A program made the position numbers and the translations under genes. Of a DNA stretch of 64,000 bases, positions 4,145-64,000 are shown piece by piece (the stretch's first letter is position 1; each line of letters opens with the position of its first letter). The DNA lies in contig AP031352.1 in the NCBI GenBank assembly GCA_037833965.1, positions 27,840,501-27,904,500 on the forward strand, read 5' to 3'. The notes below the pieces were generated by a model that had not been told where the DNA came from, ran no database searches, and saw nothing but the letters and a program-made list of their open reading frames with translations. The DNA comes from Marchantia polymorpha subsp. ruderalis. Taxonomy: Eukaryota; Streptophyta; Marchantiopsida; Marchantiales; Marchantiaceae.

Positions 4145-4180
4145 CGTAGTACAGTGTAGTGCTAGGTAGGACTTAGAAGG

Positions 4181-4209: not shown

Positions 4210-4489
4210 GGTTCTTTCCCATCAGAAGTGCAGATCAGGAACCCATTTCCTTTGCGTGTTTGTGTCCTTGAGTTCTGTCACCACGCACGAGGAGTTACAA
4301 CTTAGCGTTCCGCATTTTGTAGCTGAAGGCCTTCGGCCGAATGTTCAGAGCTAGTACATTGGTTAGAGACTTGAGTAGTTCGGATCTGCACCTGCGGGTG
4401 ACTGCCGATGCTCAGAGCCAGTGACTAGTTAGATACTTGAACAGTTTCGCCCCTACACCTTCGAGTGTTTCTTTCTGATTGTACTCCTT

Positions 4490-5060
4490 GGGATTTTTCC
4501 CCTGAATGCCAAAGTGAAGTTTTGCTACTTCGTGTAAGCCTTGGTTGTAAATTCAGGTTACGCTGCAGCAGGTGCCTTGAGGGTAACCCCTGTAGTATTT
4601 CTGGGAATGACAAGTGCCCGAGAATTCAAACTCTTCAATAGACTGTTGTTGTGTTACTGGAATGTTTCACAGTGAGTCCTTCAGTGTGGACCTGTGTTCT
4701 CTGCGCGTTTTGTGAGTTGAGAGTGTTGTTCACCGCGTCTGAGTGACTTCGATCCGAAGTAGGTAGTCCAAACCGGGTTTCCTACACTAGCAGCAAGCTA
4801 GTGGAAGCGTTGTAAAAGCCGGAGTTGGAAGTCACTACCCGCAGCTTCGCAGAGTGTACTCTTGAGAGACTTTCCCCCTGAAATCTTGAAGTAGAGGTCC
4901 TAACGGATCTCTGGGTTGTGTTTCTGTAGTTTCAGGTGTGTGTGTGTGTGTGTTTTACGCTGCACTGTGCGACCTCCGAGTGCGCTCCGAGTGGACACTT
5001 GCAGTATTTCTGGGAGTGACAGTTGCCTGAGAATTCAAACTCCTCAATAGTCTGTTAAAA
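4490..5060 (+). repeat. Diverged internal duplication in R/U5 of the LTR
   Basis: A block with a pyrimidine-rich CCCCTGAA motif, a TTCAGGT motif and then a conserved GTATTTCTGGGA...GAGAATTCAAACTC segment occurs twice. The last segment is at 4592-4647 and again at 5001-5056. The copies are diverged and the spacing is uneven (about 375-410 nt). A (GT)n tract lies at about 4935-4951 in the second copy. The same structure is present in LTR A (about 9905-10500) and less clearly in LTR C. It could be duplicated leader, packaging or polyadenylation signals; the role is not evident. Confidence 0.6.
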
Positions 5061-5153
5061 GGTGACACTTTGTACCCTGTGTGTTCCTCTGTCCTTGTGG
5101 GTTCGACCTTTCTACCACTATATTGCAGTTTTAGCCTTTAGTGGGTTATTACA

Positions 5154-6891
5154 ATAAGCGCTCATCTGCCATCTTCTTGAACAAAACCCCCTGCTGGAGT
5201 TGGTACGGGCCTGCCTTATGAATAAAGACAGTTCGCTGTTCCAAATCCATGCCTACAGGACACTGGAGGGTTAGCAGGTATCGATACAGGTCGGCATAGC
5301 GGGACTCATGTCCTGCAGACAACTGAAATAACTCTTCATCTGGAAAATCGTCCACCAATTCCTCCTCTGTTGGCTGGGTCCATAATCGGGACAAGTAATC
5401 CGCATTTTCGTGGTGCACCCCTTTCCTGGTCTGGACTGTGTAGGTGAACTCTTGTAGTAACAACACCCACCTGGCGATCCGACCGGATAGGTCGGCTTTC
5501 TTGACTAGGTGTTGCAATGCGTAGTGGTCCACATGGAACACAAACTCGTAGCAGATTAGGTAGTGACGGAACTTTTTACAGGAGTACACCATCCCCAACG
5601 CTTCTCTCTCCGTCGTGGTGTACTTCCGCTCTGCTAGAGACAGCTGTCGGCTCGCGAAGTAGATCGGGTAGTCCTTTTTGTTGTCATCCTTTTGACTCAG
5701 TACTACACCGATGGCGAATTCCGATGTGTCAACGTAAACGTGGAATGGTCGATTCCAGTCTGGACTCCTTAGTACGGGAGCAGTCGTGAGTTTCGCTTTA
5801 AGAGTCTCAAATGCTGACTGCTGGTTCGCACCCCAAGCATAAGGCTCGTCCTTCTTCAACAACTTGGTCAGGTCCGCCGCCAGTATTGCATACAGGTGTA
5901 TGAATCTTCGGTAGTAGCCCACATGACCCAGGAATGCTCGCAGCTCTCTTAGATTCGTGGGTGGCTCAAGCTCGAGTATAACCTTGACCTTCTCGACGTC
6001 CACCGCAATGCCGTCTGCCGAGACCCGATGACCCAACAAGATCCCACTAGTCATAAAGAAAAAGCACTTCTCGGGATGTAGTGATAAACTGCTCTCTCTA
6101 CATTTATCGAAGGTCTGCTTCAAGTGACTTAGGTGTTCAGACCGCTTCCCAAAGACACAGAAGTCATCTATGAATATTTCCAGGAACTTCCTCAGTTGTT
6201 CCTGAAAGATATTGGTCATCATCCGTTGAAAGGTGGCAGGCGCGTTGCACAGACCGAAGGGCATCTTGTGGTATGCGTAAGTTCCCCAGTCGGTTGTGAA
6301 CGTAGTTTTATCCTTGTCCTGTTCACGGATAGACACCTGATTGTAACCTGAGAACCCATCCAGGAAGCTATAACATTCATGTCCTGCGACATGGTCTAGA
6401 ATGGCATCCGTGAATGGTAACGGGTGATGATCCTTGCGTGTTGCTGCATTCAACTTCCGGAAATCCTGACACACTCGTATCTTACCCGTCAACTTCTTGG
6501 GTACGATAACAATCGGCGACACCCACTCACTGCTGAGCACAGGGTAAATAATACCAGCGCTCAAGTACTTATCTATCTCCTCTTTAACTAGCAAGGAGTA
6601 TTTTGGGTTGAGGCGATACTGGCACTGTCGTATGGGTACTGAGTCGTCCAGTAAATCGATACGGTGTTCCCCATACCGTGCAGGTATCCCCTTCATGTCT
6701 TCGATCCTCCAGGCGAAGACGTCGACATAATGGCTAAGGAATGCCTGTACTTTCCTTAGCTCGTCTCCTCTCACTGCGCTTGATACCTTCAAGCACTTGT
6801 CGGGACTGAGTTGTACTTCGTGACAGTCACTAGGGTCAACAATGCCCTCGGTGTGACTCGTCTCACTCCTTCCCAGTCCCACAGTTAATTG
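5154..6891 (-). CDS. pol: pol of element A: reverse transcriptase and RNase H, truncated
   Basis: This continues in the same frame as gag after the TAG at 6892-6894. It holds the linker ending in DVFAW, then the RT fingers/palm (motifs DFRKLNAATRKDHHPLP, GYNQ, FGLCNAPATFQ) with catalytic FIDDF, then RNase H (YVDTSEFAIGVVLSQ, TTTEREALG, HVDHYALQHL), ending near the tether before integrase. FxDDF in place of YVDD is typical of the plant Athila/Tat lineage. There is no stop or frameshift up to residue MADERL, where the LTR of element B (ending at 5153) interrupts it. The integrase and 3' LTR must lie left of the window if they survive. In C the frame continues into integrase at the same point, confirming truncation by insertion. 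Confidence 0.9.
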
Positions 6892-6894
6892 CTA
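6886..6894 (-). promoter_or_regulatory. gag-pol readthrough stop, UAG CAA UUA (element A)
   Basis: On the minus strand gag ends with TAG and the next six bases are CAATTA; pol continues in the same frame. UAG-CAA-UUA is identical to the tobacco mosaic virus readthrough context and fits the general CARYYA rule. Neither a frameshift nor a separate start is needed. The nearest pol-frame start-like codon is a GTG, which also argues for readthrough. Confidence 0.75.
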
Positions 6895-9723
6895 TTCGTC
6901 TTCCGGCTGAATAGCTTCCGGCTCTTCTTCTTCTCCCACCGAACAGCAGGCAACGAATCCCACGAAATAATCGGATTCGGTACCACTGGAATCCGATCGC
7001 GCGGTCGACTCACTATCCTCACCCGATGTGTAACCTGCACTTGTCGATGGGGTCTCTCCTTCGTGTCTGACCCTATTCCAGGGCACCGTAATGGTTTTGG
7101 TCGGTTCCGAAGGATGGGGAAACTTAAGGTGATGCCTTCGCCAATCACATCTGACTTGTGCGCCATATAGCCATGGTCGCCCGAGCAGAACGTCATAGCC
7201 CTGCTTCATCATCGGTTGAAGGATGATATACGTCAACCGAAAGTCCGCACCCCCGATGATTGTCTTGACATTGCGCAGCATACCTGCAGGCATTCTCCGC
7301 GTCTGATCCGCTAATCTCAACACACGCTTCGAGGGTTCGTATTGACTGAACCCCAAGGCTCTCGCTGTATCCTCCGTCATTATGTTGACTCCTGATCCAG
7401 AGTCGATTGGCACCCTGCGTACACAACACCCTGCTATTTCCACATCGATCTCGGGTGGCCCTTGGTCTTCGCTCTCCACTTGATATACTTGAGAGGATGT
7501 GGATGCGCGCGGCTTCCGCGGATGCCGTAGCGAAAGCATCAACATTCTCCGATACGTCTTATTGTCCTCCAAGAGCTGCTTGAACGTGATGTTCACTTTT
7601 CGACTCCCGAGATCTTCGACCAAGTCATAGTGGGCGCGTTGGGTCGCCTGGGCCGGCGACGCTCTGCGAGGTTCCACGGTGGCTGCCAACTTCGCCCCAA
7701 GGGAGGATGTCAAGTCTGGCCGCGGTGGGTTCTTTTGAGTGCGGATCGCTTCCTTCAACAGGCTGGTTACCTCGTTGCGGATATCCGGAGCATAGTCCCT
7801 TTTCAGTAGGCGCACTGGCTCGTCCTCGACTGCTGCCTGGGGGCGCACTGCTGGTGCCTCTCTCGTAGCCGAAGCCTTCCGAGCAGGTCGCAAGTCGGAC
7901 TTGCTGGATGTCTTCTCCTTCCCTTTTCCCGTCCGGTCGTCGGTTCTCCGTTCGTGCTTGCGAGTGTCACGCTCTTGCTCCTTCGATTTCTTGGAACTAC
8001 GAGTTTCGACCCGTGCGCACATAACCTCTTCAGCCGGCCATTCTTCATCTTCGTCATCCCCGTCTGAACCTACTTCGACCTGGTTAACTTGGACGTCCTC
8101 CTTGGCAGGAGTGTTCACAAATCGTACCGCTGGCCGAGGGACTGGTGGCTGATCACACTCTGGCGCAGTATGCCCGATCTTCTTGCAATTACTACATGTC
8201 GGAGCATAATCGTTTCGCCTTTTTGGATGGGGACACTGCGGTGAGAAGTGCCCAACTTCCCCGCAATTATAACAAGCTCGCGGTGGCGGTGGGTCAAACG
8301 TCCCTGGAGGTGCCCTCCGCCTCACGGGTACTGTAGTGGCCCGATCCACCGGAATATATCGTGGGACTTGCATTGCTGAAACTGCAGGAGGGGTAGGAAC
8401 CGACTGGACGGCGTAGGCTGTCTCTTCGCTAGCCTCTCCATAGTACTGAGGGTGCTCTCCATAGTACGGTTGTGCCCACTCTACTGCGTTGACTGGATAT
8501 GACGGGCGGGTGGTAAGGCACTCGGTGTTTGCATGTCCCACCGCCCCGCACGTAGTACACCATAAGTTCGCTCGCACTCTCCCGGGTGATTTTCGGCGAT
8601 CATGCCCGCCTACCACTTGAACCTTGAGATCGGCGAAGTCCTTCACAAGGGTCTCCATCTTCGAGGCTATGTCTCCCGGCGCTCTGTCCGTAGTCACTCG
8701 TCGGGTGCCCTTTTTCTTCGCTGACCCATGCTTCTTCCTCTTCTTCTCCTCCTCCGACGATGAGGTTTCCTCTTCTTCGGATGAGGAACGGTTCTCGTCC
8801 GAAGACGATTCCTCCGATGACGGAGTTGTACCTCTACGTCGTCTTCGCCCTCCCTTCGGTTTTCGCTCCTTCGACTCCCGTCTCTCTCTCCCTCTTCGGT
8901 TGAGAGTGGAAGTTTCGAAGGCTTCTGCCGATGCAATCACATCCTCAATAGTGTCGCACTTGCTGCGTCGGCAAAAAGTCTCCATCTCCCGAGTTAAACC
9001 GGTCACGTACCAATCCACAGCTTGTTGTACCGAGAAAGGGGACCCTGGTCCTGTTTTCGGTATTCTGTCAAGGAGGTCCAGAAATCTCTCAGTGTAGTCA
9101 CGCAGACTCTCCTTCTTCTCTCGCTGCAAATTACGTAACTTTGTCAAAACCCGGCTGTCGTAGCCGAGCTCGCGAAAGCGGCGGAGGAACTTCTCCTTCA
9201 GCTGGGCCCATGTTGTCAACCCAGTCGGATCGATGCTCTCGTGATTGTACCAACTCCTCGCTTTCTTCCGCAGAAGGCTTGGAAAGATCCTTAGTCGGTC
9301 GTCGTCTGCGATCTCGCGATTGGCAATAGACACCGACTCGAACAACTTGATGTATGAATCTGCATCGTCGTCATCCCCACTCCCTTTGTACTTCGGGTAG
9401 GAATGTTTAGTAATCGGCTGAGGTAGCCGCACATTGGCTTGTCCGTCCGCCATCGGTGTGTCAGTCGACGGTTCTCGGGCGGTCGGTTCTACTTCACGAG
9501 GCGGGTCCGTGCAAGGAATATCTAGTAGAACTGTAAGCACCAAGTTTGGTTCCGAGTCGCCGGGGGTAGGTTCCCCAAGGATGTCGGCCAAACTAGGCTT
9601 AGGTACTCTTTTTGGTGTTTTCTTGTTTTGACGCCGTGTCTCTTCCACGGCCTTCTCTGAATCTCGTCGGAACTTGCGGACAGCTCTAGCACTTAGGTTG
9701 CTCCCGCTAGCCCCAGTCGACAT
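6892..9723 (-). CDS. gag: gag-protease polyprotein of element A (943 aa)
   Basis: An intact ORF of 943 codons starting 64 nt after the primer-binding site. Residues about 105-270 form the retrotransposon gag capsid-like domain (SYIKLFESV, ARSWYNHES, WAQLKEKFLRRFRELG, ESLRDYTERF). A Ser/Glu-rich plus Lys/Arg-rich linker follows. Three CCHC zinc knuckles can be read: CTTCGAVGHANTEC, CYNCGEVGHFSPQC and CSNCKKIGHTAPEC. The retropepsin domain near the C-terminus has the active site IDSGSGVNIM and the flap/C-terminal motif DVLLGRPWL. The protein ends in an acidic tail before TAG. No internal stop is seen, so this part of the element looks young. Its homologue in C has lost knuckles 2-3 and the protease active site. 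Confidence 0.92.
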   Translation of the reverse strand: MSTGASGSNLSARAVRKFRRDSEKAVEETRRQNKKTPKRVPKPSLADILGEPTPGDSEPNLVLTVLLDIPCTDPPREVEPTAREPSTDTPMADGQANVRLPQPITKHSYPKYKGSGDDDDADSYIKLFESVSIANREIADDDRLRIFPSLLRKKARSWYNHESIDPTGLTTWAQLKEKFLRRFRELGYDSRVLTKLRNLQREKKESLRDYTERFLDLLDRIPKTGPGSPFSVQQAVDWYVTGLTREMETFCRRSKCDTIEDVIASAEAFETSTLNRRGRERRESKERKPKGGRRRRRGTTPSSEESSSDENRSSSEEEETSSSEEEKKRKKHGSAKKKGTRRVTTDRAPGDIASKMETLVKDFADLKVQVVGGHDRRKSPGRVRANLWCTTCGAVGHANTECLTTRPSYPVNAVEWAQPYYGEHPQYYGEASEETAYAVQSVPTPPAVSAMQVPRYIPVDRATTVPVRRRAPPGTFDPPPPRACYNCGEVGHFSPQCPHPKRRNDYAPTCSNCKKIGHTAPECDQPPVPRPAVRFVNTPAKEDVQVNQVEVGSDGDDEDEEWPAEEVMCARVETRSSKKSKEQERDTRKHERRTDDRTGKGKEKTSSKSDLRPARKASATREAPAVRPQAAVEDEPVRLLKRDYAPDIRNEVTSLLKEAIRTQKNPPRPDLTSSLGAKLAATVEPRRASPAQATQRAHYDLVEDLGSRKVNITFKQLLEDNKTYRRMLMLSLRHPRKPRASTSSQVYQVESEDQGPPEIDVEIAGCCVRRVPIDSGSGVNIMTEDTARALGFSQYEPSKRVLRLADQTRRMPAGMLRNVKTIIGGADFRLTYIILQPMMKQGYDVLLGRPWLYGAQVRCDWRRHHLKFPHPSEPTKTITVPWNRVRHEGETPSTSAGYTSGEDSESTARSDSSGTESDYFVGFVACCSVGEEEEPEAIQPEDE

Positions 9724-9787: not shown

Positions 9788-10754
9788 AAAAGAAGTTGTC
9801 GGCTTCTTATGTAATAACCCACTAAAGGCTAAAACTGCAATATAGTGGTAGAAAGGTCGAACCCACAGGGACAGAGGAACACACAGGGTACAAAGTGTCA
9901 CGTTTTAACAGACTATTGAGGAGTTTGAATTCTCAGGCGACTGTCACTCCCAGAAATACTGCAAGTGTCCACTCGGAGCGCACTCGGAGGTCGCACAGTG
10001 CAGCGTAACACACACACACACACACACCTGAAACTACAGAAACACAACCCAGAGATCCGTTAGGACCCCTACTTCAAGATTTCAGGGGGAAAGTCTCTCA
10101 CGAGCACACTCGGCAAAGCTGCGGGCAGTGACTTCCAACTCCGGCTTTTACAACGCTTCCACTAGCTTGCTGCTAGTGTAGGAAACCCGGTTTGGACTAC
10201 CTACTTCGGATCGAAGTCACTCAGACGCGGTGAACAACACTCTCAACTCACAAAACGCGCAGAGAACACAGGTCCGCACTGAAGGACTCACTGAGAAACA
10301 TTCCAGTAACACAACAACAGTCTATTGAAGAGTTTGAATTCTCAGGCACTTGTCATTCCCAGAAATACTACTGGGGTTACCCTCAAAGCACCTGCTGCAG
10401 CGTAACCTGAATTTACAACCAAGGCTTACACGAAGTAACAAAACTTCACTTTGGCATTCAGGGGAAAAATCCCAAAGGAGTACAATCAGAAAGAAACACT
10501 CGAAGGTGTAGGGGCGAAACTGTTCAAGTATCTAACTAGTCACTGGCTCTGAGCATCGGCAGTCACCCGCAGGTGCAGATCCGAACTACTCAAGTCTCTA
10601 ACCAATGTACTAGCTCTGAACATTCGGCCGAAGGCCTTCAGCTACAAAATGCGGAACGCTAAGTTGTAACTCCTCGTGCGTGGTGACAGAACTCAAGGAC
10701 ACAAACACGCAAAGGAAATGGGTTCCTGATCTGCACTTCTGATGGGAAAGAACC

Positions 10755-10784
10755 CCAGGCAAAACGCCTGGAACCATTTTATAC
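10755..10784 (-). promoter_or_regulatory. LTR core promoter of element A: TATA box plus hairpin
   Basis: On the minus strand TATAAAA (10777-10783) is followed by CCAGGC-GTTTT-GCCTGG (plus coordinates 10755-10771). Apart from a G for A after the TATA box it is the same as in element B. It is the presumed start of genomic RNA for the gag-pol of A. Confidence 0.65.
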
Positions 10785-10819
10785 CTTCTAAGTCCTACCT
10801 AGCACTACACTGCACTACG

Positions 10820-13800
10820 CTACACGCCTGCACGGAACCATGCTACACTACACTCCGCGGAACCTGTACTACGTCTCCTGCGCGGCCGACTGCCGCGCAC
10901 TAACTCCCTACCCTGCCAATCTTCCGCTCGACTGCGCAGTCCCAACCTCTGCAACGCCGCGGACACCTCCCCTTCGAGGGCGGACATGGTATCCTGTGCC
11001 TTCGACAGAAAGGCATCGAGCTTCTTCGCTACCTTCCGCCGACTCCTACTGTCGCCTGACAACAACCCGGCTGCGCGCAATTCAAACTCACGCAGTGTGA
11101 GTTTCTCCTGCGCCTTCACTTCCCAGTGGGCGTAGCCCTTGAGACAGTGGGCGACTCGCCTCGCCGTCTCCACCTTCGTGCGATCCGCCTCCTTCCTGCG
11201 ATCCTCTTCAATTATCACTAATTGCGATTCGGCTTCAGCACGTTGCGCTCTCAATTCGCCACACTCTGACTGTAACCTGCGGATTAACTCTTCATCCGCC
11301 TGCCGTGCGAGCTGACATTGTTCCAACAACCGCGTCTGTCGCACGAGCTCCTCTGACAAAATCCGATTCTGGGCCTGCTCAGAAATGAGTGCTTCCTTGA
11401 CCTTCACCTGCTCCTTGGTGAGCTCGCCCAGTTTCTCATCCTTCATCTTCTCGGAGTGCTTGTAGAATTTCTGATTAAGCTTGTACTGACCCCACAAGCA
11501 CGCATGCTTCTCCTTCAATTCCTTCAACTCCTGGTCCACTCTAGCTAATAGCTTGCTGGTGTGGACTTTAGTGCGAGTCCGCCTGCGCACTAACTCGATG
11601 TAAGATCCCGGCTGGAGTGGGTCGGCGTATTTATCGACCTTGCGATCCAAGTACCGCAGCAACGGAATCACCTGCTCAGAGAGCGCCGCCGCCGGCGCTC
11701 CAACAATTTCCTCCTCCTCCTCCTCGGTGTCTTCTGCTCCTGACATTTCTTCCGTGGAGCCTCCGTCGTCATCATCCGAGTGGAGAATTTCAGTCGCCAT
11801 TGATTGCGTCGGCGACTGCCCCGAGTGGGGCTGCACGTCGTCGACGTGTGCTGCCTGCGAAGGCACGGCTGCAGCCTCGCTGCTCGTCGCCAAAATGTCT
11901 AAGGCGGAAGGCGAATGTACCCGTGCGGCATCCCCGTCTCTCGCTTGTTGATTGTCTACCGCATCCTCTCTGCCGCCGTCGTCCGCCGCCGAAGGCGATC
12001 GAGCGGAAGGTGGCTGCGCGGGGTTTGATTGCGCATCGCGCATCGAGATTTCATCCCGCGGACAGTCACTCCGCTCCTCCGTCTGCTGCTCCCTTGATCG
12101 GTCCGTGGGGGCTGTGCCCGGCCCGTGCGCAGGCGCATTTGCCGGCGCCTTGTCCGCCGCAGGCGTAGCGCCGCGGACATCTATCGCTGAAGGCGACATG
12201 GCCGGGGGCCGCACGCCCGATGTTCCTTGGCCTATAGGCCCTACCGCCGAAGGCGCATCTATCGGCGGACTTCCCGCCGATGGTGCGGCCTCCGCACGCT
12301 CTCTGCTCGTATCTCCTCGGCTCGAAGGCCCTGGCGCCGAAGGCGCAAATTGCGGCGCGTGGTGCGCCGGAGGGTCTGGCCCCGAGGGCCGGTGTCTCGT
12401 AGGCGGTTCTTCCGCCGGCTCCTTCCCCTTCCTACGTTGGAACGGGGGTGATTCTTGCCTGTGCACAGGCGGCACGTGTGGAGGTGTCCTGTGCACAGGC
12501 GACCTGTGCACAGGTGAGCGCCTGTGCACAGGCGGACTGCTCCTTCCCACGCGTAAGCGTAGATCCACGTCCACTTGTGTTCGCCGGTCCGCGGAGGCTC
12601 GTCCGTCCGCGGAGGCTCGTCCGTGCGCAAACGGAACATCTGTCCGCATCGCACGTGGTAACTCCGGAGGCTCTTGGCCCGTAGGCGGCCTTTCTCCCGT
12701 CGAGGTTGCAGCGTGGCCCGTCGCTCCTGCGGTCGTCCGCGCTTCCTCATGCCTCTCTGGCGACGCACCTCCTATCTCCGTCGCAATTGTCGCCGTGTCC
12801 GCACTGTCAGCTGGTAACACCAGTCTGCGTGCCTTCTGCTTCGGCCGGCTGTATGGCTCGCACAGCGGCCGCGGTCGAATGGGAGCAGAGGGTTCTTGAT
12901 GCTGCTCCTCTTCAGACTCTTCCCTCCATCGCCGCTTCCGCGGCACTCGTGCTGCAGGAGTGTGTCTCCCTTCGTCCCTCCGTCTTGATGGGGTAGAAGT
13001 CGGTGACTCCTCTGCATCAGTGTCGACCTCGTTCTCCCGCACATACTTCCCGGGATGGTCGATGGACAATGGCAGAAAATGTTCAAGCTCCGCCGCTGTC
13101 AAACAATTCCGCTGTCGATAAAAATTGATGAGGAAAGGAGAAAGATGGTTTAGAGTTCCCCCCTTCTCCTCAAACGCGTGCTGTCGCATCACCCTGTGCA
13201 GGATGCTCGCCCAGTGAATTGGAGTTCCCTCGATGACGCACTCCACAAAAGAGACCTGCCACAATGTGATGTAGCAGGCGCGGTGCGGCTGCAGTAACTG
13301 CATCAGCGCCGCGGACAAAGTCCGGCGAAATCGATCCTTGTAATCACGGGTCCTGTACCCATTCTTGGTAGACCTCCCGGTCTTGAACAGCTCCACAAAT
13401 TGCGCCTCTTCTTGCTTGGTCACCTTGATGCTCTCACTGTCGAAAAGGAGATGCCCTGGCATGCCAGCACATCTTCCCAACGCCTGTGCCCAATCTTGGA
13501 CTGTCCACCGGTCAACATGCGGACGCAATCCGCGCGAGGGTGGTCCCTGTGGCTCTAGCCACTCGCGCACCATATTCGCACAGATGTAATTCCATCCCCA
13601 TAGCAAGAAATCGAGCTTTCTTGCTATTAAGCGCTCCTCAAAAGCGCGCAGCCCGTTCTGCGGTAGGCGAAGTGGCACCATCCGCAATCTGCTCGGTCTC
13701 GTCATTGCGTTCCTGGGGTTCGCTCGCCCGCTCATTCTACTTCCGCACTGCCCGCGCTTCTTTCTCTCTCGGCAAACTCTAATCGCCCTCAATTCCAAAT

Positions 13801-13957
13801 CACGCGCACTCACTTCTCCCTCAATCAACAAGAAATCTCCTGTGCGACGACGTCGAGAATGTTCCGCAGCCAGCAGATGGATGCGCGCAGCGCGCACAAG
13901 AGATTGGAATCGCGAATTCAAGAATGGGACGTTCTCCGCCGCCCGGTCGAAGGTCAT
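10820..13957 (-). CDS. LTR-borne ORF of element A, 1045 codons, unknown function
   Basis: The same protein as at 1007-4144, with roughly 37 scattered substitutions, mostly in the disordered middle; the N-terminal conserved domain and C-terminal coiled coil are almost unchanged. Same length, no stop and no frameshift. The conserved alternative start is the in-frame ATG at 13705. Two copies with intact frames suggest recent spread or selection on the protein. Large antisense ORFs over it (for example 11952-12899, plus) are GC-driven shadows. Confidence 0.8.
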   Translation of the reverse strand: MTFDRAAENVPFLNSRFQSLVRAARIHLLAAEHSRRRRTGDFLLIEGEVSARDLELRAIRVCRERKKRGQCGSRMSGRANPRNAMTRPSRLRMVPLRLPQNGLRAFEERLIARKLDFLLWGWNYICANMVREWLEPQGPPSRGLRPHVDRWTVQDWAQALGRCAGMPGHLLFDSESIKVTKQEEAQFVELFKTGRSTKNGYRTRDYKDRFRRTLSAALMQLLQPHRACYITLWQVSFVECVIEGTPIHWASILHRVMRQHAFEEKGGTLNHLSPFLINFYRQRNCLTAAELEHFLPLSIDHPGKYVRENEVDTDAEESPTSTPSRRRDEGRHTPAARVPRKRRWREESEEEQHQEPSAPIRPRPLCEPYSRPKQKARRLVLPADSADTATIATEIGGASPERHEEARTTAGATGHAATSTGERPPTGQEPPELPRAMRTDVPFAHGRASADGRASADRRTQVDVDLRLRVGRSSPPVHRRSPVHRSPVHRTPPHVPPVHRQESPPFQRRKGKEPAEEPPTRHRPSGPDPPAHHAPQFAPSAPGPSSRGDTSRERAEAAPSAGSPPIDAPSAVGPIGQGTSGVRPPAMSPSAIDVRGATPAADKAPANAPAHGPGTAPTDRSREQQTEERSDCPRDEISMRDAQSNPAQPPSARSPSAADDGGREDAVDNQQARDGDAARVHSPSALDILATSSEAAAVPSQAAHVDDVQPHSGQSPTQSMATEILHSDDDDGGSTEEMSGAEDTEEEEEEIVGAPAAALSEQVIPLLRYLDRKVDKYADPLQPGSYIELVRRRTRTKVHTSKLLARVDQELKELKEKHACLWGQYKLNQKFYKHSEKMKDEKLGELTKEQVKVKEALISEQAQNRILSEELVRQTRLLEQCQLARQADEELIRRLQSECGELRAQRAEAESQLVIIEEDRRKEADRTKVETARRVAHCLKGYAHWEVKAQEKLTLREFELRAAGLLSGDSRSRRKVAKKLDAFLSKAQDTMSALEGEVSAALQRLGLRSRAEDWQGRELVRGSRPRRRRSTGSAECSVAWFRAGV

Positions 13958-15200
13958 GGTCGGCTCTTGGTCGTGAAGAACGTCTCACTTGATGGCCGCG
14001 CCGGCTGTACGCTGGAACGGTCTTCGCTTTCACGCGCGGCTTCACGCTCCGCCGTCGTCGATTAAACTCTCACGCTCGAATTGGCGGATTTGAACTCCGC
14101 GAGCGTGTCACCCTGCGGACATGGGGGCGTAACGCCGAAGGCGAGTTTTCCGCCTTGCGCGGTACACTTGTTCGTACCGCCCCTCGGCCAATCCCCCTCT
14201 GCCTTGACGCGTGTGTCCGCATGTCGGACAAAAGTTCAACTCCCGCCTGTGCGCAGGCAGGAGCCTCGGCGGATTCTCCGCCGGCACGGAACTTCATCCT
14301 CCTGTGCACAGGCGTTCGCCTGTGCGCAGGCGAATTCCGTGCGCTACGTCGCGCTGGCGCGGAAGGCGTTGACCGTGGTCAGCCGTCTCCGTCCAGTCTG
14401 TCCGTTCCTTGTCTCTTCGTCGGCGCTTCCGCCGCCGCAACTCCGTCCGTCCAAGAGCGCATCCACCCTTCCCGTCCGCATGGTCCGTACCGATTTGATT
14501 ACTCTGGCGGCTCTTCCGTCGTACGCGGCGCCGCGCTGGCGCGGAAGGCGCCGTACACTTCTACCTCACAAGGCGCATTTCTAGGGCCCAAGGCGGATTT
14601 TCCGCCGACGCCGAAGCGCCTGTGCACAGGCGAGCGCCTGTGCGTAGGCGGACTTCGCGCCTCCCCTAACCCTACTTCGCCTGTGCACAGGCGAACGCCT
14701 TCGTCCGCGCATAGGACAAAACTTGATTCCCCCTTCCGCGTAGGCGGAATTCGCGCCGGTGGCGAACTCTTTCCGCCGTAGGCGACCGCCTCCGTTTCTT
14801 CCAATAGCGATAACTCCCTAAGTCCTCATCCGTTCCAAGCGTTCTTGGGCTCGTTGGAATCAGTGCGTCGAGCTCTTTCCACCGGGACCCTAACTCGGTC
14901 AAGGCGCCCGAGGGTTGACCTAATTACGGGGGGTTTCCCTACAGCCGCGGACGCAACCTCCGAAGGCGGGTTCTGCGCCTTGCGCCGTAGAGATCCTAAC
15001 TGCAGAGCTCGCAGGGAGGGTGGTGCCTGTCCTTACTGCTGCACCCCAAATCCCAGATTCTACAAGATCTCTCGAGAATCCCCGCGATCTTCCGGATTCA
15101 CTCTGTTTTGATGTACCGAAGGCTATTTACAATGCTGCCAGGGTACAGTTTTCCAAAAATGTTTTAATTTCCTCAAAATTGCCAAAAGTGGGGTACCACA

Positions 15201-24107: not shown

Positions 24108-27100
24108 ATAGTACTGTCAGGGTTACATGAGAAGATTCCTCCCCATCCAAAGTGGTCAAATCGCACTACAAGGTCGATCGTAATGAAAGAAGGCAGGACT
24201 CTGACTTACTACTGTTATCTGTTAGTAGTATTATATACTGTTGTCTGTTTTCCTTAGGAAGCCGTAAGAAACAAAGGAATGAGGCTTAAGAAAAGTACTT
24301 ACTTTGGATCAAAATCATCTTCAGCCCAAAGTTTTTTGAAAGAAACCAAGTTAGTCGGAGTCAACACCGCATCCTCACTCAGTAACCCAAACGTGATTGT
24401 GTCCAAAATTTGGGCAATGAAGAGGTTCGCAAAGATATACGTGGTAAGACAGACAGAAATCAGCATGTATACAAGGCCGACGACAGGAAAGCCACAGTCA
24501 CTGGCGAATACCGAAACACTGGATAGACAGGCTGGCTCCGTGATTGTAAGGTCGATTATGAGACAGGACCAGTTGTCCAAAGTCGTGACCTGCTCACTCA
24601 CACAGCATGGCAGTTCTGATTGAGCTTCTTGAACATTTAACAGACCGAGAACGCTAAGCAGACGAAACTGTTCGTCGACAATACAGGTTGTGTAGTGCCA
24701 TCGCTGATTGACAATGCGAGTCGGTTCGCACTGAGTATACAGCACAGTCAGCACAGTTCAGTTTCTAGAATAGCTGTACTTCAGTAGTTCTATTGTGCTC
24801 CGAACTGGTTCGATTCATACCAAGTTAGGGCAGCATTTCGCACCAGATGAAATGCACGCCTAGAGCCGAGTTTTTGGCAATGGATCTCCAGTTATTATCG
24901 TGGAACAAGTATTAAAAAAGGAAGACCATGGAAATGAATCAGCAATGTTGGCACGATGAATTAATTTCGAGGAGCCACTTAGGTCTTGTGCAACCTGACC
25001 TGCTGATTGAATAGACGACATACCTGTATTAGGATGATAAAAGAATTTATCCAGGTCGAGAAGTTATTCTCAGCACCGTTTCTTATGCAAACACCGTCTT
25101 TAAGTCTGTAAAATATTTGCACTCCAAGTTGGGCCAAAGCAATAAGAACAATACCCATCAGCATTATGATGTCGATCATGGATGGTAAACTCACAAAAAC
25201 CGTCGTGAGGATGGTTTTAAGAGAGTGGAAGTAGCGGATTGGACGAAGTATTCTTAAACAGACAAAAATCTTGCCGAGGGCTTCTGGAATGTGAGACCTG
25301 CTCCTAGCAGCAGCTAAACATGCTACGCTTCCCACCACCAGTACCAACTCATAGAGATTCCACTTATCTTCCCACCAATCTTGGAGCTGCAGGCGCATCC
25401 ATGTCACACGTACAGAAGAAGGTCAGAGATGACGTATATACCTAACAAGAATTTTTTGCAGAAAAAGTGTCACGTCGAGATGTTCAGAAACCTAAATACA
25501 GTACCGTCTTCGCTATGGTCATAGTCTTGCTGAACAATTATATTCGAGGGAAAATATTCTAATTCAAATATTTATCATCTTTGCGAAGATGCTTGAAGAT
25601 TTTTAGATCTTCAAGAAAATAGAATGATCATAGAATTTTGGACCGTTTCAAGAATTACCAAGACCACAAGAACATACTAGCTTCACGTCTATCAACAAAA
25701 TCAACGATCTGAATAGTCACTGGTGGTGACAGTTTGAGGGGGCATGGACAACGACATTCATCAACATTCCAAAACTGCTAGAGATCATCTTCATCAAGTA
25801 ATCCATCTTGCTTGTTACCGACGTCTGTTCACAAGACTTAGAGATGATTACTTCTTAGGTACTGATCATATTGTGATAAATGGTATTACAAAAATAAAAA
25901 AACTCCTGCAAACGATCAAGATCTGAACATTGTTAGCGGACGAATGTCTCGTAAGTTCTGATCATAAAGAGTTAACTGTAACAATATGAAGAAGGCCCGA
26001 TATTTCGCTCTCGAGTCTCAGTGATCTTATGTTCCGGATAACAGATCCAGAGATTCTTAGAAGGCCTTTTAACTACTGATGCTGGTACCGAAGGGATGAC
26101 GGCAGAGTCTGTCAATTTGACTCTACAATATTTACTCCACTACTTCAGATTTTAGTAGACCCAATTGTCCACCGAGCATATCCCAGTTTGGGCAAGTAGG
26201 TACGCCCAAGTGAATCGTCTTTGCGATGAAGCTCTGTGAAATATTCACACCCTATAATCGCGGGGCTTTCTCGAAACAATTCGATAAATGGTTTTATATT
26301 TTAGAAACAGATGAGAGCGTCAGGATTTCAGCCCTGCGTGTGGAGCAATCACGAAGGGTTTTGAAGTCAGTCAAGAGTTTTGGAACGCACCTCGGCTCCC
26401 AGCAATTTCATAATGGCCTCCAGAGCGAAGAGAATGACGAACATGATGAAAACGGGATCGGAAAAAACCGGGATCGGAAAAACTCTCACGAGAACGAGCA
26501 AGTGGTCCTGGGGCTCGAGTTCATTTGACTGTGCTGCGAGGTAGACGCAATTGCAGAAGATGACGAAGACGACGGAGAGCTCGAAGGCGCGATGTTGCAC
26601 GATCTTGAAGCAGTAGCGACGAATGGCCCAGCCCCGAGGGATGACCGGCCGGCGCATGGGCACCATGCTCTGAATCAGCCGGTTCGTGTCGCGCCACAGC
26701 TTCTGGCGCTCCGTGAGCAATTTTGTCCCCGACATGATGCCGAACTGGTCGATGAACACGCCCACGAACATGCGCAGGATGAAGAACCCCCCGATGCACA
26801 CGAAGACCACGAAGAAGATCGCCTGCGAGGCGTTCAAATTCTGCTGCGGCGACAGCCCGGCCCTGTTGGGCATGTCCATGGCCGGGTAGAGGAAATAATT
26901 GAGCCAATTGTCGAAGGTGGAGGCCACGAAGAGCGCCAGCATCGCCTCCCCGAAGGCATCGAAGTGGTAGGGCGGGTTGACCCATGTGCGAGGCGCGAGG
27001 AGTCCGATGTCGTTGTAGAACAGGCCGACGCACTCGGCGTGCCCCGGCACCGTTCTGTCGGTGCATGAGCGGAACCGATCGGCGTACAGCTGCATCCCGA

Positions 27101-27798
27101 TGAGCGCGAAGATGGCGTACATGACGGCTGTGAACACGAGGACCTGAAACACGGCCGGCAGCGTTCGGCCCAGGGACGTCGTCAGGCTCCTCAAGCCCTT
27201 GAAGCGATTGATGTATCGAAATGGTCGACATGCCATCATGATCAGAGTGGTTTTCCCGTAGTACTCCACCTCGTGTAAAAAATTGTGTGTTTTCAGGTAC
27301 ATCATGTGGAATGTCAAGTTGACCAGGTCCACAATGTTGTAGGGATCCTCCATGTACGCTTCACGGGTCAGTAGAAATCCGTAAGCTATACTCTTCATAA
27401 TCAGATCCAAGCAGAAAACCTGTCACCACCATCCATCCATCCATCCCGTTCACTCCTATGCCGTCAAATTGAATGCCACATAAAGCCCGACATAGTGCCC
27501 CAGGGCCGAGGCTATACAAATTTTTTTAAGTACAGTGTTTTGTTCGTCGTGAGCTAACTGCACGCAAGCGCAGGCTAATGTGTGCATTACCGAGTGCGGG
27601 AGGGGGGCCATGATGAAAGCTAGAAGGCATGCTCAGACGATGAACTGACCGATAGCTGCGCAGGGCCAACGATTGCTAGTGAAATTGCGCAGAGTGGGAA
27701 ACAGCCGAGCAACAGCCTGAGCAGCGCTCAACAGGAGCAGTCGACGGCTTTGTTGGTATTTGCTAACATAGAATGAGAGGATCGCGCCAGGACTGCGC

Positions 27799-57196: not shown

Positions 57197-60037
57197 TTAC
57201 ACGTGGTATTTCTTCAGACGCCACCCGTTCACGCGGGTGCCTAGCCATTCTCCTGTCAATTCTGCGAGTTGGATTGAGCCATTGGGGAAAACTTCGATCA
57301 CCTTGTAAGGTCCCATCCATCTCAAGTGTAGCTTGCCTGGAAATCTAGCATGTCTGCTATCGTAGAGCAGAGCCAAGTCGCCCTTCTCAAGTAGTACTGG
57401 TTTGAGTCTTCGATCGTACTTCTCCTTCCGTCTGAGCTGTAGTTGCTTTGTTCGATCTTCGGCCTCTTGACGTCTTTCCTCCAGTGCCATTACTTCTTGC
57501 AGTCGATAGGCCTGACTTTCTTCCGCATCCAGCCTTCTCTGATCTAAGGTCCTCTTGGTGGGTATCTCGAATTCGATGGGTTAGATCGGATGCTGCCCAT
57601 AAACCAGAAAGTAAGGTGTTTGCCTGGTGGTGACTTTTTCTGCCGTTCTGTATGCCCATAAGGCGGCCGGTAGCTTGGTGTCCCAGTCGTGAGCATGATT
57701 CACAGTCACCTTGAGGAGTATCTTACAGAGCAATCCATTGGACTTCTCTGTCAGACCATTCGCCTTGGGGTTGTATGGAGTAGTCTTCCGATGCTTAATC
57801 TGGAAGTGCCGCGTCAAACTTTCTATCACCTGATTCAGAAAGTGCGTTCCCCTGTCACTGACTATTTCTAGTAGGCACCCGTAGCGTGTGATGATTGATT
57901 CGAATAGGAACCGTGCTACTGCTGCTGCGTCGTCGTGCCTTGTGGCCTCTGCCTCCACCATCTTGGTCGCATAGTCTGTTGCTACCAATATGTAGCGCCT
58001 GCGCGTGCCTTTAGTGACAGGTTGTATTGGTCCCACGAAGTCGATCCCCCATTTTTCAAATGGTTCCAAGGGCATGATCGGTGTCAGAGGCCATCTCGTG
58101 GTCGGAGTCGGCCTTCCCGTCCTCTGGCAGCTATTGCATTTGCGAACGTAGTCGTGTACATCTTTGAACATCGTCGGCCACCAGTATCCTGCATTCACAA
58201 TTTTGGTCACTATATTCCTGGTGGCGTAATGACCACCAGCGTCCTCTGTGTGCATGGCTTTAACGACTCGCGGAACTTCGGACTCCTCTAAGCATCTGCA
58301 CAACCTCTCATCTGCCATTTTCTTGAATAAGACCCCCTGTTGGAGCTGGTAAGGTCCCGCTTTATGAACAAAGACTGTGCGCTGCTCCGCATCCAATCCT
58401 TCCGGACATTGGAGTGTGAGCAGAAACCTGTACAAGTCCGCATAACTGGACTCATGGCTGGCGGACAACTGAAAAAGTTGTTCGTCGGGAAAATCATCCA
58501 CTACTTCCTCTTCTATGGGTTCGGTCCATAGTCTGGAGAGGTAGTCCGCGTTCTCATGGTGAACGCCCTTCCTAGTCTGCACAGTGTAGGTGAATTCCTG
58601 CAGCAGTAGTACCCATCTGGCAATTCGTCCGGACAGATCCGCCTTCTTCACCAGGTGCTGTAAGGCGTAATGATCCACATGAAACACGAACTCATAGCAG
58701 ATCAAATAATGTCTGAACTTCTTACAGGAGTACACCATTTCCAACGCCTCCCTCTCAGTTGTCGTGTACTTCTTCTCTGCTGCTCACAACTGACGGCTCA
58801 CGAAGTAAATCGGGTAGTCCTTCTTGTTGTCGTCCTTCTGACTGAGAATCACTCCGATTGCAAATGCCGACGTGTCTACATAGACATGGAAAGGTCTGTT
58901 CCAATCCGGACTTCTCAGAACCGGAGCAGTCGTTAGTTTTGCCTTGAGTGTTTCAAAGGCTAGCTGTTGCTCCTTGCCCCACTCATAGGGTTCTTCCTTC
59001 TTAAGCAGCTTGGTCAGATCGGCTGCCAAGATGGCGTACATATTTATGAACCTTCTGTAATAGCCTACATGGCCAAGGAAGGCCCTCAACTCACGCAGGT
59101 TCGTCGGCGGTTGAAGTTCGAGAATAATCTTCACCTTCTCTACATCCACTGCAATGCCATCGGACGAAACTCTGTGCCCCAGCAGGATGCCGCTGGTCAT
59201 AAAGAAAAAACACTTCTCAGGGTGCAAGGACAAGCTGCTCTCCCGACATCTGTCAAACGTCTGCCGAAGATGGTTAAGGTGCTCCGACCTCTTACCGAAG
59301 ACACAAAAGTCATCGATGAAAATTTCCAGGAACTTCCTCAGGTGCTCTTGGAAGATGTTTGTCATCATCCGCTGGAACATCGCTGGCGCGTTGCACAGCC
59401 CGAAAGGCATCTTGTGATAAGCGTAGGTTCCCCAGTCGGTCGTGAAGGTTGTTTTGTCCTTGTCCTGTTCTCTGATGGACACCTGGTTGTAGCCGGAGAA
59501 TCCGTCTAGGAAACTGTAGCATTCATGCCCTGCGACATGATCCAAAATAGAGTCCGTAAAAGGGAGAGGGTGATGGTCCTTCCTCGTTGCTGCGTTCAGC
59601 TTCCGGAAGTCCTGGCACACCCGGATCTTACCCGTCAGTTTCTTGGGCACGATTAAGATAGGCGACACCCACTCGCTACTGAGTACCGGGTAGATGATCC
59701 CTGCGATCAGGTACTTATCGATTTCGTCCTTCACCAATAATGAATATTTTGGGTTGAGCCTGTATTGGCGTTGGCGAACCGGAACTGCCTCGTCCAACAA
59801 GTCGATCCTGTGCTCCCCATACCTTGCAGGTATGCCTTTCATGTCTTCAATCTTCCATGCGAAGACATCCTCATACTGGCGAAGAAACGCCTGTACCCTG
59901 TTCAATTCTTCTCCTTGTACCTGGCTTGACACCTTCAAGCCTTTATCTGGACTGAGCTGCAGTTCGCTGCAGTCACTTGGGTCGACAATCCCCTCTGTGT
60001 GACTGATCTCGCTTCTGGCCTGTCCGGCTGCTAGTTG
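57197..60037 (-). pseudogene. pol: pol of element C: RT, RNase H and integrase, two stops
   Basis: In frame with gag after TAG at 60038-60040. RT with FIDDF; RNase H; integrase with the HHCC zinc finger (H in AMHTED and GGHYA, then CNSC), DDE core (GIDFVGPI, VSDRGTHF, E in NGLTEKSNG) and a C-terminal segment ending WRLKKYHV. Two nonsense codons: TGA at 58784-58786 inside RNase H (after SRQL) and TAA at 57581-57583 late in integrase (after YGQHPI). The frame is otherwise kept. It provides the integrase that A lacks in this window. No extra ORF lies between integrase and PPT. Confidence 0.9.
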
Positions 60038-60040
60038 CTA
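60032..60040 (-). promoter_or_regulatory. gag-pol readthrough stop, UAG CAA CUA (element C)
   Basis: On the minus strand gag ends DDE-TAG, followed by CAACTA, with pol in the same frame. This fits CARYYA although the third-codon base differs from A, so the motif is kept across subfamilies. Confidence 0.75.
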
Positions 60041-61503
60041 TTCGTCATCCGGATGCACATCGTCCCCTTCCTCCTCTATGGAGCAGCAAGTGACGTAACC
60101 CACAAACTCATCCGACATTTCTGTCTCTGAAGTGCATGACGAGCTGGTCTCCCCTCCAGTCGTGTAACCGGAGGTGGTCGAAGGTGTTTCGCCCTCGTGT
60201 GGTACCTTGGTCCATGGTACGGTAATGACAGTCGGAGGGTCCGCAGGGTTCCGGAACTGCAATCTCTTCCTCTTCCAGTCACACCTTGCTTTGGCATCGT
60301 ATAGCCACGGTCTGCCAAGCAGCACATCATTGCCTGGAGGTGCCATGCGTCTCGGTGGGAGCGTACCCGCCATTTCCCTCGGAACAAAGCGCGGTATATG
60401 CACAGGTGGGTTCGGAGTTGTAGCTGGAGCTGTCTGTACCGCGTAGGCGGTGTCCTCAACCGGCTCAGCATAATAAATGGGGTTCTCCCACTGTGGTGCC
60501 CATTCGACCGCATTCACTAGGTAAGTCGGGCGAGCGGACATGCACTCCGTGTTGGCATGTCCCACCTGTCCGCACGTAGTACACCAGAGATTCGCTCGCT
60601 GTCTCGCAGGTGATTTACGTCGGTCTTGGCCTCCCACTACATGAACTTTCAGGTCCGCAAAATTCTTCACCAGGTTGTCCACCTTGGCTGCGATGTCCCC
60701 TTGACTCTTCACTGGGATTCCCCTACCTCGATCCTTCTTCTTGATCGTATTGCGTTTCTTCTTCCGTCTTTCTTCCTCTGAAGATGACGAGTCCTCTTCC
60801 TCTTCCGAGGAAGAACTCGATTCGGAGGAGCTTGATTCTTCTGTCGAGGAAGGCGAGTTCCTTCTCTTCCGACGTCCGCCTTGCGATTTCTTCTTCGTCG
60901 ACCGTCGGTCGCGTCTTCGAGTGTCAAGGGTTGACGTTTCAAAGATCTCTGCCGAAGCTATCACATCTTGGATTGTGTCAGTCTTGCCTCTCCTGCAGAA
61001 GGTCTCCATTTCTCTTGAGAGCCTTGTCACATACCAATCCACTGCTTGTTGCACCGAAAATGGTTCTCCTGGGCCTGTCTTCGGAATTCAATCTAGGAGG
61101 TCTTGGAATCTCTCAGTATAGTCTCAAAGATTCTCCTTCCGCTCGCGTCGAAGATTTCGAAGCCGGGTCAGTACTCGACTGTCATATCCGAGTTCGCGAA
61201 ACCGCCTCAGAAACTTTTCCTTGAGCTGAGCCCAGGTCCGGATGCCAGTGGGGTCGGTGCTCTCATGGTTGTACCAGCTACGAGCTCTCTTGCGTAGCAG
61301 GCTAGGAAAGATTCGCAGTCTGTCTTCATCACTGGTCTCACGATTGGCGATGGAGACAGACTCGAAGAGCTTTATGTATGAATCTGCATCATCGTCGTCG
61401 CCCATTCCCGTGTATCTTGGATACGAATGTTTTGTGATAGGTTGGGAAAACACCTGCCGGAGATTGGCTTGATGGTCTGCCATTGGTGATCCTGTCAACG
61501 GAC
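60038..61503 (-). pseudogene. gag: gag of element C, deleted and with stops
   Basis: Capsid-like region (SYIKLFESVS, ARSWYNHES, WAQLKEKFLRRFRELG) with TGA at 61124-61126 (ENL-stop-DYTERF) and TGA at 61088-61090 (LLD-stop-IPKT). Element A has arginine at both places. Zinc knuckle 1 is present (CTTCGQVGHANTEC). At about 60340 an in-frame deletion joins MAPPG to NDVLLGRPWL, removing knuckles 2-3 and the protease active site. The N-terminal about 90 codons are lost at the joint with LTR sequence near 61503. Confidence 0.85.
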
Positions 61504-62649: not shown

Positions 62650-63005
62650 TTGTCGTGCGAATACATATCGCCATACACTCTACATCGCTGACATGCTACT
62701 CACATACACATACGCACACACATACACACATATAAGGCGCGAGAAAGTACACACTCAAACGTCACAACTGAAATAGACGGGAGATTCCCCACTGGAATTC
62801 CCGTCGGTCAATTACCCTACTGGCAACAAACCGTCACCGTCACAAACATGAGTCAAGCCCAACCCACTCCACACTCGGAGAATCCAGGTCGACGCAAAAG
62901 GGAAAGTCACTCTACGCTCCCAACGCTTCCAGGCTCGACTCGAAGAACTAACGTTCTTCGAGCCGTCCCCGACTCTATACACCTCGTGACCCGAACCCTC
63001 CGAGT
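62650..63005. other. Junction DNA with (AC)-rich tract
   Basis: No gene recognised. It contains an ACAC/ATAC-rich tract (about 62698-62735), a GGGAGATTCCCC...GGAATTCCCG palindromic stretch near 62780-62810, and an inverted repeat CTCGAAGAAC/GTTCTTCGAG near 62937-62962. It may be the flank, or the leader or LTR, of the element at 63006. Confidence 0.4.
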
Positions 63006-63851
63006 TTGATGCCAGTGTTACGTCATCTCCAAGTGCAGCAGACACGTTCTCCAGCATACATTCTGGAGAACGTACCATTGTTGGGTGACACTCGAGCCCA
63101 GTTGATGGCGAGTGTCCATCAAGTCCGAGCATGGATTGGATCAGCAGTACTGTTGGATGCTGCGAGGGTTGGATCACGGGCGCATCGTGCACGTTTGTGG
63201 TGGACCAACCTTTTGCCGCGTGAGATATTGCGTCATGCCTATGATTCGGTGAAGCGTGATACTACACTCACCGTTGACAGTATCTTGGATGTTTCCCGGC
63301 ACTCTCAAGTAGTGAGAGTTGCTAACAGGTCACCTATGGCGTTGGTGAACCGCGTAGGTCAGCCTCGGATGGCTTTACCTACATTTGTCAGTTATCCGGC
63401 ATCACATGCATATCGTGATGGTGGACCTGGACTACTATGGGACAGGACCCTACATCAATTGGTGGAGCCCAACGCTGATGAGAGAGAGTGTGCGATGGGG
63501 TTTCTTACTGGTGTGACCGCGGCTTCTTCAATTTCAGAGGCGTCGCGTCGTCAGGTTTTGGGTCAGGCTATGGACCTTAACTGCTTGACGTGGATTGTGA
63601 GCTTGGGTTTGGCCGAGCAACGCCGTTTGCGCGCAGATTTGGTGGTTGTAACACCACTTATTAGCTCATTGCCTACCGGGGCGGTAGTAGCAATGGCTGG
63701 AGGCGACAGGCGAGATATTCGTTATCCTTGGAGTTTATGGGACGTGACGAAAGGACTTGCCAGAGTTGCAGCCCATGCAGTTGGAGAGGATTCTCACGTG
63801 GAGGTGGCTACGAAGGAGGGTACAGAGAACCCTTCTTTGCAGTGTGTAGCG
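63006..63851 (+). CDS. DNA cytosine-5 methyltransferase domain (DNMT3-like) of a Ty3/gypsy polyprotein, 5' truncated
   Basis: An open frame of 282 codons beginning without a proper start (TTG first). It shows the C-terminal half of a C5 methyltransferase in the usual order: motif VI LENVPLL; then LLDAARVGSRAHRARLWWTNL, matching the DNMT3 SAAHRAR-FW-NL block (motif VIII); and an end block ERECAMGFLTGVT...SRRQVLGQAMD (motifs IX-X). Motifs I and IV, with the catalytic PC cysteine, are not seen upstream to 62650, so this copy is truncated. After about 200 residues the frame runs through a short tail to TAG at 63852 and continues in frame into a gypsy pol start. Methyltransferase fusion in retrotransposons has been reported from charophytes and dinoflagellates. 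Whether a complete copy is active is not shown here. Confidence 0.82.
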
Positions 63852-63860
63852 TAGCAACCA
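63852..63860 (+). promoter_or_regulatory. Readthrough stop UAG CAA CCA (DNMT element)
   Basis: TAG at the end of the DNMT frame is followed by CAACCA and the same frame stays open to the window end. This fits CARYYA, as in A and C, at the equivalent place just before the RT linker. Confidence 0.7.
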
Positions 63861-64000
63861 TTGACAGTGTCGCCTCCCTCTAGTGTGCCTATGGAGGAGG
63901 AATGGGAGCCATTGATTGGTTCCCAGATCACAGGAGGAGAGAGGCGACGATTGACACAATTCCTACGAGACTATAGGAGTTGTTTTGCTTTCAGTATGAA
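63855..64000 (+). CDS. pol: Start of pol of the DNMT-bearing gypsy element (runs off window)
   Basis: In frame after TAG: a Pro/Glu linker (EEEWEPLIG), then RRRLTQFLRDYRSCFAFSM. This is the conserved entry to Ty3/gypsy RT (compare FLSHYVDVFAW in A). The distance from stop to FA(F/W) is about 45-60 residues in both. RT itself lies beyond 64000. Confidence 0.75.

Follow-up and report, generated by a model that had tools for sequence, protein, structure and literature searches.

What would a plant retrotransposon do with a cytosine methyltransferase of its own? Plants silence transposons by cytosine methylation, so a transposon that brings the enzyme with it presents a paradox. The question is raised by the end of a window of 64,000 nt (AP031352.1, 27,840,501–27,904,500 of the forward strand, assembly GCA_037833965.1) from Marchantia polymorpha subsp. 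ruderalis; Marchantia is a liverwort and a genetic model. There, an initial annotation had described DNA methyltransferase (DNMT) motifs VI, VIII and IX–X in one frame with the entry of a gypsy pol, with a UAG codon between them. Retroelement DNMTs have been reported from an alga and from dinoflagellates, their role being left open in the main text of that report (PMC5890265).

Reading the window bore out this arrangement: all three motif groups are present, in the correct order and in a single frame (Table 1). The open frame spans 62952–63854 on the forward strand and ends with TAG at 63852–63854, gypsy pol continuing in frame from 63855; 81 aa lie between the motif X anchor and the stop. The left edge of the enzyme, originally set at 63006, was corrected to 63007, as 39 of 39 other scored copies align from query base 2; bases 62952–63006 lie outside the enzyme, and the left terminus of the rearranged copy, reading TGTCGTGC..., falls at 62650/62651. 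These other copies came from a search of the 241 Mb, nine-contig genome with the window end, in which 40 places (the window itself included) were scored of 425 first-look candidates; the 39 further places are 97–98% identical from 63007, so the match is not one of chance. Window 63007–64000 is a 5′-truncated, rearranged copy of a high-copy gypsy-type element carrying a DNMT. The earlier doubt about the activity of this copy was justified, since it is without Gag, protease and motifs I and IV and, beyond the window, has a premature stop in the reverse transcriptase (RT) region and a nested insertion farther downstream. The fragment alone gave no Pfam family at E up to 10 and a weak match to DNMT3A (E 0.86) among PDB sequences; it is of little use in such searches because most of what the PF00145 profile recognises falls in the N-terminal half that this copy has lost. 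Elsewhere in the window, a 5.2-kb inverted repeat (1–5158 and 9806–14960, 97% identical) flanks the Gag-pol of a second gypsy element, A, each arm holding an open frame of 1054 aa (one was scanned, with no Pfam match at E 0.01), and an ion channel gene exon lies at 26370–27422 on the reverse strand (PF00520 Ion_trans, 129 bits).

Table 1 Coordinates of the features discussed, in window positions
Feature	Position	Strand	Basis
Retro-DNMT C-terminal part (motifs VI, VIII, IX, X, tail to stop)	63007..63851	+	98% to L012 4914 onward
Motif VI ENV (catalytic Glu; ILENVP)	63066..63074	+	Sequence; in 29/29 intact copies
Motif VIII HRARLWWTN	63183..63209	+	Sequence; aligns with DNMT3A HRARYFWGN
Motifs IX–X ADERECAMGF...GQAMD	about 63474..63575	+	Sequence; PDB-sequence alignment
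In-frame UAG + CAACCA (readthrough-type context UAG-CARYYA), boundary of ORF1 (Gag-PR-DNMT) and ORF2 (pol)	63852..63860	+	
ORF2 start (pol, QPLTVSPPSS...)	63855..64000	+	RT just past window end
Inverted copy of the element's 3′ terminal region (A2 end + B2)	62650..62999	-	Sequence comparison
Element A Gag-protease ORF without DNMT, ends TAG CAATTA	6892..9723	-	Comparison; Pfam
Element A pol (RT, RNase H), directly after stop	5149..6891	-	Comparison; Pfam
Element C Gag/protease remnant, ends TAG CAACTA	60038..61087	-	Comparison

Full copies are present elsewhere in the genome, exemplified by L012 (98% identical in DNA), and encode Gag, protease and a C5-cytosine methyltransferase in ORF1, followed by UAG and by RT, RNase H, integrase and a PHD finger in ORF2. 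Two of them, L012 (C8) and L014 (C7), were read across the coding part. The features anticipated around the fragment, namely Gag, motif I and the PC of motif IV upstream and RT and integrase downstream, all lie in one frame in full copies. ORF1 is a single frame of 1361 aa in L012 and is split by a stop within Gag in L014; it holds two CCHC-like knuckles and the protease motif LLDSGAQPLMLG (both by eye), then the DNMT motifs VCLLDLFGG (I), GWPCQG (IV), ILENVP (VI), HRARLWWTN (VIII), ERERAMGF (IX) and GQAMD (X). In L012, the Gag (PF03732, 15.9 bits) and protease (PF08284, 11.9 bits) profiles fall below their cut-offs of 24.1 and 20.3, so that both assignments are from motifs by eye; in a relative, P0033, the zinc knuckle and protease profiles exceed theirs. 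ORF2 of L012 passes the Pfam cut-offs for RVT_1, RNase H, H2C2 and rve in gypsy order and for the PHD finger (40.1 bits, cut-off 24). The lack of a profile hit had been named as evidence against a methyltransferase, and literally the fragment has none, but ORF1 of L012 overrules it with a PF00145 score of 38.2 bits (cut-off 22).

Among solved structures, ORF1 of L012 lies nearest to DNMT3A (E 8.7e-10), then to DNMT3B (6e-8) and DNMT3C, with unrearranged motif order; much weaker matches are the plant DRM 4onj (2.6e-4), HaeIII (3.2e-4), DNMT2 (4.2e-3) and HhaI, and no DNMT1- or CMT-named chain lies below E 1. These values bear on the possibility that the protein is not chiefly a DNA methylase but methylates RNA (the genomic RNA or tRNA primer) or serves in the particle mostly to bind nucleic acid. 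DNMT2-type relatives do act on tRNA, and ORF1 is the RNA-packaging frame, but DNMT3A/B stand far ahead of DNMT2 and the catalytic residues are retained in 29 of 29 intact copies, so that we consider either role quite unlikely, even with a Klebsormidium relative whose DNMT domain gave no methylation in yeast, a result that its authors call inconclusive in the main text (PMC5890265).

The ends of the element are unusual for a gypsy retrotransposon in their repeat order, A-coding-B-A-B (split repeats). The L012 copy, of ~11.3 kb, consists of A1 (the 5′ terminus), a ~2.7 kb leader, ORF1, UAG, ORF2 and B1-A2-B2. In three copies examined, the 5′ end carries only segment A (about 292 nt) whereas B-A-B makes up the 3′ end; none of the three is flanked by a pair of identical full-length LTRs, and we therefore speak of a gypsy-type element, not of a canonical LTR element. 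Its termini read TGTC...GACA, and the 4-bp target duplications AAGA, CGCT and GGTT, found in all three copies for which both ends were fetched, are in keeping with an rve integrase. A1 was found by a genome search with a 300-nt segment lying between two B repeats; an element start at L012 1257 without terminal repeats was considered and rejected, a second A copy lying ~11 kb upstream in the same orientation. Between the two ends of a copy, the A repeats show 99.7% identity in one case, 100% in another and, over 109 nt, 98.2% in a third, so that the element looks recently active.

Several copies vary around this plan. The leaders between A1 and Gag measure about 2.7–3 kb and differ among copies L065, L066 and L067: the first two have a common stretch past A1 of only about 140 nt, and L067 shares about 10 nt with them, while having its leader in common with L011 (89%), a pattern suggestive of an exchange of leaders or upstream exons. 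L059 resembles a leader minus an inner stretch, and in L048 (C2:20746214-20746714) the 3′ end of a copy, without B2, passes into a second 5′ leader, head to tail. In L033, L034 and L041 the DNMT is intact and the upstream protease match covers only the last 71 of 315 residues. At C3:16763002-16794704, DNMT-element copies and end repeats are clustered in both orientations, two of them abutting oppositely in L010.

The position of the DNMT relative to the stop would govern how much enzyme is made, and the stop itself is strongly conserved. At all 33 places in the fetched loci where the protein anchor EEEWEPLIG occurs (some of these loci overlap on one copy), the sequence reads TAG CAACCA, and no occurrence is without the stop. 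A second subfamily, in which the codon before the stop is TCA and not GCG, has TAG in 8/8 loci and CARYYA in 7/8 (a ninth locus, L075, was missed by the motif). Twenty unique stop contexts were collected with CAACCA as part of the search pattern, so that the hexamer was tested freely only by the protein anchor and the second subfamily. UAG-CAR-YYA is the consensus for efficient readthrough in the text of PMC3542737 that treats it, and the element thus has the UAG + CARYYA signature of type I stop-codon readthrough. The RNA just 3′ of the stop in L012 folds with a z of -2.81 (1 of 200 shuffles equally good), a value from one copy that we offer as a suggestion of a stop-associated feature.

The same stop signal follows the Gag-protease frames of two gypsy elements of the window that lack a DNMT, A and C, which places the DNMT at Gag level. 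As first described, both have their Gag-protease end at the matching position, A by Pfam and C by eye. Before its stop, element A encodes Gag, a zinc knuckle and a region that matches aspartyl protease at 23.0 bits, a little under the cut-off of 24.3; the Gag frame of element C is degraded, with no gag or protease Pfam match and an end that resembles the protease end of A by eye, and its RT lies after the stop at 58784–60037. Furthermore, 15 of 15 environmental protein relatives P0018–P0032 (1228–1451 aa) end with the DNMT and a short tail, with no RT motif. In two others, P0033 and P0034, the frame runs from DNMT into RT uninterrupted by a stop. Were the stop a product of random decay without recoding, the living element would make one Gag-DNMT-Pol protein, as the single long frames of P0033 and P0034 might suggest; but all examined occurrences, from two subfamilies, share this UAG, nearly always with CARYYA after it, and two further gypsy elements have it at the corresponding position, which makes such decay very improbable. 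The early proposal that the enzyme is made at Gag level is instead well supported by sequence, given the order Gag-PR-DNMT/UAG/RT-RH-IN, the conserved UAG-CARYYA and a DNMT that lies intronless inside the element.

The DNMT region is abundant in the genome. A PF00145 profile search gave at least 123 scored matches (290 candidates seen), 119 of which start at profile positions 45–61, like the element copies that were read; 25 of those 119 lie in stop-to-stop frames of 1324–1365 aa. The DNMT region is thus present some 119 times or more, and PF00145 gene counts here are dominated by a transposon. The four rows with another profile range are L015, L016, C3:19066770 and C2:6442483. Annotated Marchantia polymorpha proteins include relatives of the family at 78–96% identity; one of these, P0008, agrees with the present genome at 100% over residues 275–961 (687 residues), and exons of a DNMT3 paralogue do so at 84–97%.

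The DNMT is under purifying selection. Across 44 loci, with gapped, stop-bearing and partial rows removed and identical sequences merged, pooled pN/pS, which is thereby conditioned on open frames, was 0.186 for the DNMT (95% 0.132–0.250; 29 sequences), 0.105 for RT (0.067–0.164; 22 sequences) and 0.285 for the protease region (0.183–0.447; 17 sequences). Motifs I, IV, VI, VIII and IX are present in 29/29 intact copies and motif X in 28/29. That the enzyme is a passive relic of its capture might be read from the many broken copies, several loci (the window copy among them) having stops or frameshifts, but this is hard to reconcile with the low pN/pS across copies, the intact motifs and the relatives at 36–65% identity that keep the enzyme with most motifs, and we give such a relic scant credence. 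Among singletons in the copies, C>T/G>A changes outnumber T>C/A>G changes by 60 to 9 in the DNMT (transversions 41) and by 44 to 9 in RT (transversions 20), mostly outside CpG and polarised by majority only; the excess fits what would be expected if the copies were methylated, by the element's or the host's enzyme alike.

Protein searches, which scored only the candidates sharing most words (7991 and 7985), found the same enzyme in proteins labelled Sphagnum fallax (P0017) and Closterium (P0214) and on many environmental contigs. The relatives fall into two layouts: in the P-type (Marchantia, Sphagnum, Closterium, P0033, P0034) the DNMT lies ahead of RT, and in the R-type after RNase H and ahead of integrase, often with a PHD finger. 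With P0033 and P0034 lacking the stop and the R-type carrying its DNMT between RNase H and integrase, a Gag-level dose is not universal. Trees of the two types comprised the Marchantia row and 22 of 38 proteins that passed a coverage filter. By RT, the R-type is one group (100/99) and the unity of the P-type is weak (56/22 and 67/22); by DNMT, one branch (99/98) parts P from R in a tree that is unrooted, so that it makes neither side a clade. Since both trees part R-type from P-type, the enzyme seems long joined to its polymerase. Among the relatives, P0033, P0034 and P0035 read WECQ, not WPCQ, in motif IV, the catalytic Cys being retained and Pro replaced by Glu. TSPW near the C-terminus occurs in four of 214 scanned proteins (P0035, P0189, P0195 and P0205, environmental R-type), in three of which (E/D)PF(N/S)GTG precedes it, like a second methyltransferase by eye; P0035 additionally has a G-patch.

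In a wider DNMT tree, unrooted and with long branches, 15 retro-DNMT rows lie on one side of a 100/100 branch, with six plant DNMT3s, mouse DNMT3, DRM, an unplaced algal-type protein and 11 prokaryotic-type enzymes on the other. The label 'DNMT3-like' holds as a likeness to the nearest solved structures; in the tree the retro-DNMTs stand apart from plant DNMT3, and they may be either true DNMT3s or a sister line. The methyltransferase is not a separate host gene: it is intronless and inside the element, and the host genes lie elsewhere, a DNMT3 at L015 (C6:12459429; named from motif order and protein-search matches, unrearranged, with PCQ and a frame split by an intron) and a DRM at L016 (C2:342518; named from its rearranged motif order). 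These too are C5 methyltransferases at separate loci, and the tree does not make them sisters of the retro-DNMTs. The Marchantia host DNMT3 was rejected as a recent source of the element's enzyme, as this gene lies elsewhere and groups with Riccia, apart from the retro-DNMTs. The retro-DNMTs form one group, their tree concurs with that of RT in parting P from R, and the enzyme takes two places in the polyprotein; this may point to one old capture followed by a move, rather than an acquisition in Klebsormidium alone. The 2018 Marchantia methylome paper gives the host methyltransferases, in the text that lists them, as five: MET, two CMT and two DRM (PMC5784723).

The Gypsy-Dnmt3 kind of element is already known from the charophyte-grade alga Klebsormidium nitens. 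As its main text describes KnitGypsy-Dnmt3, it has in common with the Marchantia element the Gypsy domain set, an intronless, unrearranged Dnmt3-related C5 methyltransferase in the coding region, DIRS-like A-coding-B-A-B repeats, in an order 'the same as that of a DIRS retrotransposon', and purifying selection (Ka/Ks < 0.2, against a pooled pN/pS of 0.19 here) (PMC5890265). There, however, the reported place of the DNMT is an algal Pol polyprotein ORF, whereas in a land plant we find it in the Gag-protease ORF, a conserved UAG-CARYYA setting it off from RT and pol bearing a PHD finger; the main text of PMC5890265 makes no mention of gag, PHD, protease or readthrough. As the two are set apart by that description, some of the differences may be smaller than they appear. 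Among the matches listed from three protein searches (mostly nameless; one gave the best 120 of 875), no entry named K. nitens appeared. SymbioDIRS-Dnmt3 and SymbioLINE-Dnmt of Symbiodinium are likewise retroelements with C5 methyltransferases, and the SymbioDIRS enzymes are reported to methylate CG in yeast, but by the same main text these are a DIRS element with tyrosine recombinase or a LINE (PMC5890265), unlike the Marchantia element with its DDE-type integrase (rve, H2C2) and 4-bp target duplications. The R-type relatives (P0035, P0038, P0039, P0161 and others) are related in RT and DNMT and in many cases have a PHD after the integrase, but differ in the place of the DNMT, and in a few the C-terminus resembles a second methyltransferase. 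In orchids, Ty3/gypsy elements likewise took up an enzyme that modifies nucleic acid, but, in the passages describing them, a different one: an m6A demethylase, in a separate ORF and with an RNA substrate (PMC9289625). A 2025 survey refers broadly, in the text concerned, to DNMT3s carried by retrotransposons of streptophytes and dinoflagellates (PMC12344493). Titles and abstract openings yielded no literature describing such elements in Marchantia; figures and supplements may show parts. As far as these listings show, the abundance in a liverwort, the presence in Sphagnum and Closterium, the Gag-side place before UAG-CARYYA, the PHD and the two layouts are new.

What the enzyme may be for follows most readily from its place before the stop. 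With moderate confidence, we read the window locus as a truncated copy of a gypsy-type element whose complete DNMT is the last part of the Gag-protease frame, would be produced at Gag level and would methylate cDNA inside the particle, a role that de Mendoza et al. 2018 suggested for the elements they described, in the main text of PMC5890265. By established readthrough rules most ribosomes would stop at the UAG, so that the enzyme would be made and packaged in Gag-like amounts, presumably many molecules per particle, and a minority would read on into the polymerase. The protease would release the enzyme within the particle, where it would methylate the new double-stranded cDNA; copies would then integrate pre-methylated and so resemble host DNA, be shielded or be quietened at once, and the PHD finger on the integrase may select chromatin. 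Action in trans would require Gag-PR-DNMT, or the cleaved DNMT, to enter the nucleus and methylate host genes or rival elements for an indirect benefit. The DNMT3A-like sequence with conserved SAM and catalytic motifs and the purifying selection would suit it, but fusion with Gag and protease predicts confinement to the particle, Pfam found none of the targeting domains PWWP, ADD and UBA in ORF1, and the PHD is on the integrase side; we regard action in trans as unlikely. Methylation of cDNA inside the particle is the likely role predicted for the element. The window also contains gypsy elements that lack a DNMT, which shows that a gypsy life cycle does not depend on the enzyme, and host de novo-type methyltransferase genes could methylate the copies after insertion.

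More broadly, and tentatively, an old gypsy-type lineage spanning charophyte algae, mosses and liverworts may package a C5 methyltransferase at Gag level, have its DNA methylated before integration and let the PHD finger pick the target. What had appeared an algal oddity is extended to land plants, and its purpose becomes testable in a tractable model plant: a DNMT ahead of a readthrough stop gives a concrete hypothesis of a particle-borne enzyme, in Gag-level dose, with cDNA as its substrate. If true, such a retroelement would supply its own epigenetic mark to each copy from birth.
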